From positions 1 through 41,868 of the forward strand of contig CAMNHK010000013.1 in NCBI GenBank assembly GCA_946539445.1: a stretch of 41,868 nt of DNA, written 5' to 3'. The translations under genes and the position numbers were made by a program. Below, piece after piece: positions 32,841-35,534 of the stretch. This DNA comes from an uncultured Caryophanales bacterium (lineage in GTDB: Bacteria; Bacillota_I; Bacilli_A; RF39; UBA660). The notes beneath the pieces were generated by a model. It ran no database searches. It was given only the letters and a program-made list of their open reading frames with translations, and was not told the DNA's origin. Numbering within the stretch: the stretch's first letter is position 1; each line of letters opens with the position of its first letter.

Positions 32841-34820
32841 ATGATGAACCAAATGATGGATATTACAGAAATAAATGAACAGAAAATAGTGGATCAAATT
32901 CGTTGCTTAGGAATCGATATGATTCATCAAGCAAATAGTGGACATCCAGGAATAGTATTGGGGGCTGCTCCCATTATCTATGCGTTGTTTGCTCACCATT
33001 TGAAGTTTGATCCAGAAAATCCGTCGTATTTTAATCGCGATCGTTTTGTAATGTCAGCAGGACATGGATCTGCCTTATTATATGCTACGCTACATATGGC
33101 TGGATATAATATCACTTTAGACGATTTAAAAAAATTTAGACAATTAGATTCGATTACGCCAGGACATCCAGAATATGGAAAGACACCTGGAGTGGATTGC
33201 ACGACGGGACCTTTAGGACAAGGAATCGCTACGGCAGTCGGAATGGCTATGGCAGAAGCCAATCTTCGTACTCGTTACAAAGATGTGATTGACTTCTATA
33301 CGTATGTCCTATGCGGAGATGGAGATTTAATGGAAGGCGTTTCCTATGAGGCAGCATCTTTAGCGGGAACTTTAAAACTCCATAAGCTGATTGTCTTATA
33401 TGATTCCAATCATATTTGCTTAGACGGAAAAACCAGTGATACATTCTGTGACGATATAACTACTCGTTTTGTTTCTCAAGGATGGAACGTTATAACAGTA
33501 GAAGACGGAAATAGCTATGATTTAATATCGAAAGCGATTGAAGAAGCCAAAACTAGTACCGAAAAACCAACCTTAATAGAAATTAAAACAACGATTGGTA
33601 AGGATTCGGTATTAGAAGGAACCAATAAAGTACATGGTTCTCCTCTAACAGAAGAAGATATTACAGGAATTAAAACCAAAGTTGGAATTCGAGATATTCC
33701 ATTTATGATTAGTCAAAATACGCAAGAAGAATTTCAATATTTAATTCATAATCGTTGCGATCATTTAAATGAAAAATTCCAAGAAAAATTATTAACCTTA
33801 GAGGAAGAAACACAAAAAGAACTTCAATTCTTTATGGGAGATAATAAAAGAATTGATTTCAAGAATTTAGTATATGACGCTCCCGAATCCAAAGAAGAAT
33901 CTACCAGAGATACTTCTTCTCAAGTATTGAATTCCATCGTGTTAAATACTCCATTTTTATTAGGAGGATCTGCTGATTTATTTGCCGCTAACAAAACCTA
34001 TATTAAAGAAGGTGGCAATTTCAGTAGAGAAAACTATTTAGGAAAGAACATTTACTTTGGAGTAAGAGAACATGCTATGGCGGCTATCTGTAATGGATTG
34101 GCTCTATGTGGCTTCCGTCCGTATGCTTCTACTTTCTTATCTTTTGCAGATTATTTAAAACCAGCTCTTCGTTTATCGGCTATGATGAATTTATCCAACA
34201 TTTATATTTTTACCCATGACTCCATTAGTGTAGGAGAAGATGGGCCAACCCATCAACCGATTGAGCAACTATTAATGCTTCGTTCTCTACCAAATTTAGA
34301 TGTATTCCGTCCAGCCGATGCAAACGAAGTCATTGGATCTTACAAAGCCATTTTTGAAAAAGAAAGTGGTCCAAGCGCCATAACCTTAGCTCGTAATACC
34401 GTTCCAATCTTAGAAGAAACCAAAGTAAATGAAGTAGAAAAGGGTGGTTACATTGCCTTAGATTCTATGAGAAAACCAGATGGAATAGTAATATCTTGTG
34501 GAGAGGAACTTCATCAAGTGTTAGAAGTAGCTCGCCGCTTACGAGTAAAAGGAATTGAATTACGAGTTATCTCAATGCCAAACTTAGGAAGATTCTTAAA
34601 ACAATCTCCGGAGTATATGGAAGAACTACTTCCAGTAGAAGTTCGTAAAATTGTCGTTGAGGCATCTTCTAGTTTCTCTTGGAATAAATTAATCTACAAC
34701 AGTAAGTATTTAATTACTCTAGATGAGTTTGGAACCAGTGGTAAGAAAAAAGATGTATATCAAAAATATGGATTTGATGTAGATTCCTTAGAAGAAAAAA
34801 TAGAAAATTTACTAAAATAA
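32841..34820 (+). CDS. tkt: Transketolase
   Basis: 659 residues, full length. Thiamine-diphosphate enzyme moving two-carbon units between sugar phosphates in the pentose phosphate pathway, which also supplies ribose 5-phosphate for the Prs encoded above. Seen: SGHPGIVLGAAPI near residue 35, GPLGQGIATAVG near 117, the cofactor motif CGDGDLMEGVSYEAAS...NH near 155-190, the catalytic Glu in GVREHAMAAICNG near 408, and THDSISVGEDGPTHQPIEQL near 465. The sirA- and yneF-like genes follow, as they follow tkt in Bacillus. Confidence 0.95.
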   Translation: MMNQMMDITEINEQKIVDQIRCLGIDMIHQANSGHPGIVLGAAPIIYALFAHHLKFDPENPSYFNRDRFVMSAGHGSALLYATLHMAGYNITLDDLKKFRQLDSITPGHPEYGKTPGVDCTTGPLGQGIATAVGMAMAEANLRTRYKDVIDFYTYVLCGDGDLMEGVSYEAASLAGTLKLHKLIVLYDSNHICLDGKTSDTFCDDITTRFVSQGWNVITVEDGNSYDLISKAIEEAKTSTEKPTLIEIKTTIGKDSVLEGTNKVHGSPLTEEDITGIKTKVGIRDIPFMISQNTQEEFQYLIHNRCDHLNEKFQEKLLTLEEETQKELQFFMGDNKRIDFKNLVYDAPESKEESTRDTSSQVLNSIVLNTPFLLGGSADLFAANKTYIKEGGNFSRENYLGKNIYFGVREHAMAAICNGLALCGFRPYASTFLSFADYLKPALRLSAMMNLSNIYIFTHDSISVGEDGPTHQPIEQLLMLRSLPNLDVFRPADANEVIGSYKAIFEKESGPSAITLARNTVPILEETKVNEVEKGGYIALDSMRKPDGIVISCGEELHQVLEVARRLRVKGIELRVISMPNLGRFLKQSPEYMEELLPVEVRKIVVEASSSFSWNKLIYNSKYLITLDEFGTSGKKKDVYQKYGFDVDSLEEKIENLLK

Positions 34821-34826
34821 AACAAA

Positions 34827-34888
34827 AATAGACTTTCCATTTTGTTACCATTAGCTTGGTGATAAAATGAAAGTCTATTATATTTTTC
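34827..34888 (+). promoter_or_regulatory. Long hairpin enclosing ribosome site and start codon of the sirA-like gene
   Basis: 5' arm 34827-34850 and 3' arm 34857-34879 pair over about 23 bp with a single bulged C and two G-U pairs; loop TTAGCT. The 3' arm contains GGTGAT (34858-34863) and ATG (34867-34869). TATATTTTT follows, so it can also act as the tkt terminator. In the closed form the gene behind it should not be translated, and transcription should mostly stop. Confidence 0.75.
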
Positions 34889-35283
34889 AAATCAAAAAAG
34901 AAATAAAAAATTTATATGAAGATACACCTAGTGTATTATTTCATATTTTAAAAACCATTTATTATTTAGAAAAATCCGAAGTAGAATATGGTTACAACTT
35001 ATTCCGTCAAATCATTGTACCCATACCCAAGCAAAAAATAGATAAAGATATTTACATAAAGTTTCATCAAACAATGCCTTATTCTAAGAAAAAACAAATA
35101 CACTATATTAATAATTTATATCGGAATGAAGTAAGTCGGCTATTAGTGGGAAATACCTTTATTAAATTGGAAGCCGAACAAAACTTTTCAACATTCTTTC
35201 CCATTCTTCAAGAAGAGTTAGAAAACTGTTTTGTTTGTTCCTTTCAAAAAACTGATTTCTTTTTCTTAGAAAAACTTGCTTAA
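34867..35283 (+). CDS. sirA: SirA-like (YneE) replication-inhibitor family protein
   Basis: 138 residues. The N-terminus YYIFQIKKEIKNLYEDTPSVLF and the IVPIPKQKI stretch near residue 50 resemble Bacillus SirA. The place between tkt and yneF is the same as in Bacillus subtilis (lexA-yneAB-ynzC-tkt-sirA-yneF). There SirA binds DnaA and blocks new rounds of replication at the onset of sporulation. The C-terminal half is diverged. No sporulation genes other than the YlbJ-like one are visible here, so its trigger may be different. The start codon lies in a stable hairpin, so expression is probably tightly held. Confidence 0.65.
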   Translation: MKVYYIFQIKKEIKNLYEDTPSVLFHILKTIYYLEKSEVEYGYNLFRQIIVPIPKQKIDKDIYIKFHQTMPYSKKKQIHYINNLYRNEVSRLLVGNTFIKLEAEQNFSTFFPILQEELENCFVCSFQKTDFFFLEKLA

Positions 35284-35324: not shown

Positions 35325-35534
35325 ATGTTACATGATATTTTATTATTAGTAGTCGGAATCTTAATTGGAGCCGTTATTGGATTCTTTGTAGCAAGATACT
35401 TCATGAAGAAATATTTAAAGCAAAACCCTCCAATTAATGAAGACATGATTAAAGCTTTAATGATGCAAATGGGTAGAAAACCAAATCAAAAACAAATTAA
35501 TCAAATGATGAAAGCAATGGAGAAATATCAATAG
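35325..35534 (+). CDS. yneF: YneF-like small membrane protein (UPF0154)
   Basis: 69 residues. One N-terminal membrane helix ([22 protein letters not shown]), then the family tail [32 protein letters not shown], nearly the UPF0154 consensus. AAGGAG ribosome site and a TAAAAT-type -10 in the 40-base gap before it. Function unknown in all bacteria; order tkt-sirA-yneF is conserved. Confidence 0.9.

Follow-up and report, generated by a model that had tools for sequence, protein, structure and literature searches.

Promoter-in-hairpin locks have been described for phage T4 gene e (lysozyme), I-TevI and segB, and for Aeh1 mobE (PMC3014915, PMC2988022). In T4 gene e, I-TevI and others of this type, the promoter is located in the DNA that encodes the 5′ side of the hairpin sequestering the ribosome-binding site, and only the late transcripts are translated (PMC3014915, PMC2988022). 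The junction between the tkt and sirA genes reported here, from an uncultured bacterium, shares with these locks the pairing of the Shine-Dalgarno (SD) and/or AUG in long upstream transcripts (unpaired probability 0.002 in the fold), the placement of a promoter within the 5′-strand DNA, from which a short translatable RNA would arise (as suggested by conservation and by the computed opening of the start site), and a putative guard against premature synthesis of a harmful protein. It differs in that the hairpin is also followed by a terminator T-tract, where the upstream gene has no other terminator, in that it belongs to a bacterial chromosome and has a sigma-A/Spo0A-like promoter, and in that the design is found repeatedly, in genera whose arm sequences are unrelated. 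By analogy, the element would work like the T4 gene e locks, with a presumed terminator role for the upstream gene as the addition. Intrinsic (Rho-independent) terminators likewise consist of a stem-loop and a T-rich tract just past an ORF, but here the stem is made of the promoter spacer, SD, start codon and codons 2–4 of the next gene, and the T-tract is coding. Among the chromosomal promoters, spoIIE and spoIIG of Bacillus subtilis are Spo0A-activated sigma-A promoters with a spacer of 21–22 nt. The likeness to them, a 0A box over the –35 and a 21-nt spacer, is found in sister genera of the bacterium under study, whereas its own genus lacks the box core and the spacer is reused here as a hairpin arm. 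The sirA of B. subtilis encodes a protein of the same family, and to our knowledge no such hairpin is known at its tkt-sirA junction; in the open-access literature no terminator/lock/promoter overlap was found described in Bacillus. Production of B. subtilis SirA is under Spo0A~P control, and growth is inhibited if the protein is induced in vegetative cells (PMC4285326).

The window, that is the whole stretch of DNA analysed, is 41,868 nt long. In it sirA sits between tkt and a UPF0154/YneF gene, and the elements of the junction, from 5′ to 3′, are the following:

32841–34820, + strand: tkt, transketolase (PF00456/PF02779/PF22613), stop codon at 34818–34820.
34819–34824, + strand: putative –35 position, AAAACA (in sister genera TCGACA, inside TTCGACA), columns 4–9 of the junction alignment A3.
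34827–34837 and 34839–34850 (C34838 bulged), + strand: 5′ arm of the hairpin, from fold and covariation, within the 21-nt promoter spacer and the –10.
34843–34851, + strand: putative extended –10, TGTTACCAT, with the hexamer TACCAT at 34846–34851, covering the top of the stem and the first base of the loop; T, A and T invariant.
34851–34856, + strand: hairpin loop TTAGCT, from the fold.
34857–34879, + strand: 3′ arm of the hairpin with SD, ATG and codons 2–4, from the fold.
34858–34863, + strand: Shine-Dalgarno GGTGAT (GGTG anchored in 124 loci), with the transcription start predicted at G34858 from the –10 spacing.
34867–35283, + strand: sirA, 138 aa, inhibitor of DnaA (PF10747 above cut-off; weak 4tps_A match).
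34880–34887, + strand: T-rich tail ATATTTTT, which coincides with the conserved N-terminal YYIF codons, the same across the family.
35325–35534, + strand: yneF-like neighbour gene (UPF0154; PF03672, E 9.9e-30).

The gene that the original prediction had called sirA-like is a real SirA, scoring 46.1 bits (E 8.7e-12) with the curated PF10747 profile, whose cut-off is 26. The solved B. subtilis SirA (4tps_A) gives a weak match over most of the window protein, and in this alignment I13 and Y17 fall at the DnaA-contact residues F14 and Y18 of B. subtilis; the residue aligned with F14, Ile in the window, is Phe in most relatives.

The tkt-sirA junction can fold into a hairpin of 23 pairs (34827–34879) with one bulged C and a 6-nt loop, whose computed energy is –27.0 kcal/mol and whose stem begins 6 nt after the tkt stop. 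Dinucleotide shuffles of the same stretch reach –7.1 ± 2.5 kcal/mol, none of the 200 being as good (z –8.1), and a longer stretch around the hairpin gives a z of –5.5. With the window's own folds taken as background, the hairpin has the lowest energy among 5574 sliding 75-nt folds, and among the ORF starts it is followed by one of –14.2 kcal/mol, the median being –5.2. The SD, the ATG and codons 2–4 of sirA all lie within the 3′ arm, so that the fold bears out the 23-bp hairpin with ribosome site and start codon in its 3′ arm which had been read from the sequence; of the span then proposed, 34827–34888, the start is correct and the stem ends at 34879. The T-rich run expected after the stem is also present but not continuous, an A breaking the run of T. 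The stretch therefore has the anatomy of an intrinsic terminator, with a stable stem downstream of an ORF and a U-rich, although interrupted, tract directly after it. A scan of the window for consensus promoter and terminator patterns listed neither the hairpin terminator nor the sirA promoter, probably due to the limits that it sets on spacer, counted stem and tail. In the Rfam search, no family matched the hairpin element above the gathering score, on which ground a riboswitch was rejected, and two chance microRNA matches were far below threshold.

The search for SirA covered 59 close and 386 family genomes, and 151 junctions were oriented and then classified. They come from a single family of uncultured Bacilli, with more than 100 genera, and SirA identity to the window drops to 31% across them; the records closest to the window bear the names of Bacilli, Erysipelotrichaceae or Bacillales MAGs, and ruminant gut is the source of some. 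According to class- and phylum-wide PF10747 searches, SirA is almost confined to the window's family. All genomes compared are assemblies.

The potential to form the hairpin is conserved among these relatives. In alignment A3, which contains 32 junction sequences and is the basis of the pair and covariation counts, 7 pairs have changed on both sides, with 18 such cells compared with 6.9 after shuffling, and 0 of 500 shuffles reached the observed value on any of five measures; covariation in related tkt-sirA junctions was one of the checks that the original prediction had proposed, and it came out in favour. The RNAalifold consensus of A3 is limited to the lower 6 pairs because the bulge puts different species in different registers, and the pairing was tested by explicit pair counts and arm swaps instead. 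When arms were swapped between loci with tkt directly upstream, one per genus, the native 5′ arm was the better in 29 of 32 (p 3e-8), while in the other loci it was better in 16 of 26 (p 0.12); the loci were not filtered by hairpin, since a set chosen in this way would be biased by the selection. The pairing leaves its mark on the protein-coding bases as well: the third codon, Val3, reads GTC at 36 of 44 loci with the hairpin, whereas GTC accounts for 26 of the 354 other Val codons of these genes (p 1e-26), and counting once per genus and codon there are 11 GTC and 5 GTT. This bias indicates that coding bases have been chosen for pairing, in agreement with the earlier claim, to which covariation and arm swaps also lend support, that pairing of coding bases is selected. 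Judging from the aligned junctions, the hairpin in about 150 relatives is an RNA structure under selection.

A second conserved arrangement, a putative promoter, overlaps the hairpin. Across the family, with or without the hairpin, the junction has the order TTCGACA or a near variant, 21 nt, TAnnnT, 6–7 nt and GGTGAT. The heptamer TTCGACA is found in 62 of the 151 loci, where 0.3 are expected, and is about 200 times denser there than in the upstream sequence; TAnnnT follows at exactly 21 nt in 105 loci, the next most frequent spacing having 37. In this layout the 5′ arm of the hairpin forms the 21-nt spacer, and the stem top together with the loop forms the –10. Positions 1, 2 and 6 of the hexamer (T-12, A-11 and T-7) show no change in any of the 32 hairpin-bearing loci, with T-7 in the loop. 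T-12 forms a U.G wobble in 32 of 32 (columns 31–46), although C would pair better, and G-14 of the extended –10 forms a G.U wobble in 24 of 32 (columns 29–49), although better pairs are possible. The constraints of promoter and stem thus appear to bear on the same bases. Hairpin-less relatives retain the –10 element, and at L015 and L016 the longest upstream ORF is on the opposite strand, so that sirA there probably needs a promoter of its own. The case for a sirA promoter inside the hairpin is one of conservation, its activity and start site being predicted; the –35 (AAAACA) and –10 (TACCAT) of the window are themselves weak. If the predicted start site is right, the leader of the sirA mRNA would be no longer than about 9 nt (34858–34866), with the SD at its very start.

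Read on the opposite strand, TTCGACA is the Spo0A box, TGTCGAA (PMC3485338), and the TCGACA within it resembles a –35. Of 291 family genomes, 269 encode the Spo0A_C domain, that of the window among them (PF08769 at G000:C26, E 5.7e-42). In the sister genera that have the box, sirA may thus be controlled by Spo0A. No perfect Spo0A box was found at the –35 of the window's sirA, where the sequence is TAAAACA (reverse complement TGTTTTA). The window's genus as a whole has lost the CG core of the box, with AAAACA, AATACA or TAGACA in place of TCGACA, and has kept the –10 with TGn, given which the promoter probably remains; because the box is eroded, Spo0A as the trigger of sirA is uncertain in this genus. 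The genus (L001–L025) still encodes Spo0A despite the loss of the box core at 34819–34824, and three of its loci without tkt upstream have TCATCA or TCAACA at the –35.

The hairpin is associated with tkt. Defined as a fold with z ≤ –3, SD or ATG paired to an upstream arm and 15 or more crossing pairs, it occurs in 68 of 90 loci in which tkt lies directly before sirA and lacks its own terminator, in 0 of 23 in which tkt has a separate terminator (a class that takes in three loci moved there from the first after inspection) and in 4 of 38 without tkt upstream of sirA. These locus-level counts are inflated by shared descent, and the genus-level ones are a safer guide: counting once per genus and arrangement, the hairpin is found in 20 of 30 tkt-direct cases and in 2 of 31 others (Fisher p 7e-7). 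About a quarter of the tkt-direct loci fall below the threshold, several of them showing the same stem just under it. On the SirA tree, hairpin and arrangement both change often (19 and 17 changes), and among independent pairs about 5 of 9 supported go in the expected direction and fewer than 1 in the opposite one, too few for significance (median p 0.125). Within the window's own genus, the hairpin has been lost at L003, L015 and L016, where tkt is gone from upstream and the promoter –10, SD and ATG are kept; it is weakened at L005 and L025, which have gained a separate tkt terminator, and lost at L027, which has gained another terminator stem. The near-exclusive occurrence of the hairpin at tkt-direct loci that have no other terminator makes termination of tkt its most likely role, which its anatomy also suggests, and the contrast of 68 of 90 with 0 of 23 agrees indirectly with the original proposal that it doubles as the tkt terminator. 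In low-GC Gram-positives, e.g., B. subtilis, RNA polymerases outrun the ribosomes (PMC13323073), which makes a terminator so near the stop codon plausible.

On this evidence, we consider it likely that the junction, about 65 bp, is a composite insulator-promoter that works as follows. A polymerase coming from tkt would make the full hairpin, which together with the T-rich codons 4–7 of sirA would act as the intrinsic terminator of tkt. In the RNAs that read through, the SD and ATG of sirA would be held in the 23-bp stem and would not be translated: the computed probability that SD and ATG are unpaired is 0.002 in the run-on RNA of the window as compared with 0.70 in the short RNA, and the medians over the hairpin loci are 0.12 and 0.53. 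Expression of sirA itself would depend on its own sigma-A type promoter, with the 21-nt spacer as the 5′ arm and the –10 at the stem top and loop. The RNA would start at or just before the SD (about 34858) and, devoid of the 5′ arm, would be neither terminated nor locked. In sister genera with a Spo0A box at the –35, Spo0A~P would turn on sirA when the cells sporulate, in line with what is reported for B. subtilis SirA. The locked start codon of the original prediction would thus hold for the run-on mRNA, while the productive sirA mRNA probably has its start codon unlocked. An internal promoter whose RNA lacks the 5′ arm, which the same prediction had named as evidence against itself, is what the conserved –35/21-nt/–10 layout, found even in hairpin-less relatives, appears to provide; with such a promoter, the hairpin would insulate sirA from tkt transcription and would not be a control on its regulated mRNA. 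We lean slightly towards the wider view that these roughly 65 bp are under selection in three roles simultaneously, as tkt terminator, sirA promoter and lock on run-on translation, have arisen or been remodelled repeatedly in the family and keep a replication inhibitor silent outside sporulation. That sirA should be kept silent during growth is plausible by analogy with B. subtilis SirA (PMC4285326).

The hairpin might instead be a plain tkt terminator, selected only to end tkt transcription, in which case lock and internal promoter would be irrelevant and the overlap with the start of sirA would result from the short intergenic space, with codons 4–7 happening to give the U-tract. That the hairpin tracks the absence of another tkt terminator, that the stem bases adjoin T-rich codons in many lineages and that the terminator of L027 spares the SD agree with this explanation, but the –10 bases within stem and loop do not vary, even where this means a wobble pair, implying that a promoter is kept there, and L005, with its other tkt terminator, has lost the lower stem and still pairs SD and ATG. 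We regard the plain terminator as unlikely. The lock and terminator roles are not fully separable by sequence, and the lock may be a by-product, since a terminator that has to fit in after the tkt stop and ahead of the T-rich codons necessarily covers SD and ATG.

A regulated lock, in which a ligand, an antisense RNA or a protein opens the hairpin of the tkt-sirA mRNA to express sirA, would account for the full pairing of SD and ATG in the long RNA but is very improbable: no Rfam family was above threshold, no conserved alternative pairing partner was seen, the 5′ arms vary between lineages save for the promoter motif, opening would be needless given a promoter inside the hairpin, and the hairpin is mostly missing where tkt is missing. 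The RNA switch or antisense factor that the original prediction invoked to open the lock is, with no matching riboswitch family, unsupported. An operator for a DNA-binding protein, which the long inverted repeat overlapping the promoter could suggest, can hardly be the explanation and was rejected on the conserved G.U and U.G wobbles, which pair in RNA and break the symmetry of DNA, the covariation moreover keeping pairing rather than a motif and the hairpin depending on tkt directly upstream.

Housekeeping transcription that runs into a harmful neighbour is a general problem, which the composite insulator-promoter proposed here would solve twice with the same bases while still permitting the regulated expression of sirA. 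The joint constraint on promoter, terminator and coding sequence would leave a readable trace, in the form of the GTC codon bias and of the wobbles kept at the –10, and the element may serve as a search pattern for like insulators in other compact AT-rich genomes.

The tkt terminators found at other loci are variously placed with respect to sirA. At L027 a possible replacement stem (AAGCTTACAA/TTGTAAGCTT) surrounds the promoter region and stops immediately ahead of the SD, and the start codon stays free. At L118, L132 and L140 a separate strong terminator stem, built from the last tkt codons, has the tkt stop in its loop, and its T-tract runs directly into the sirA –35 (CTATTTTGACA).
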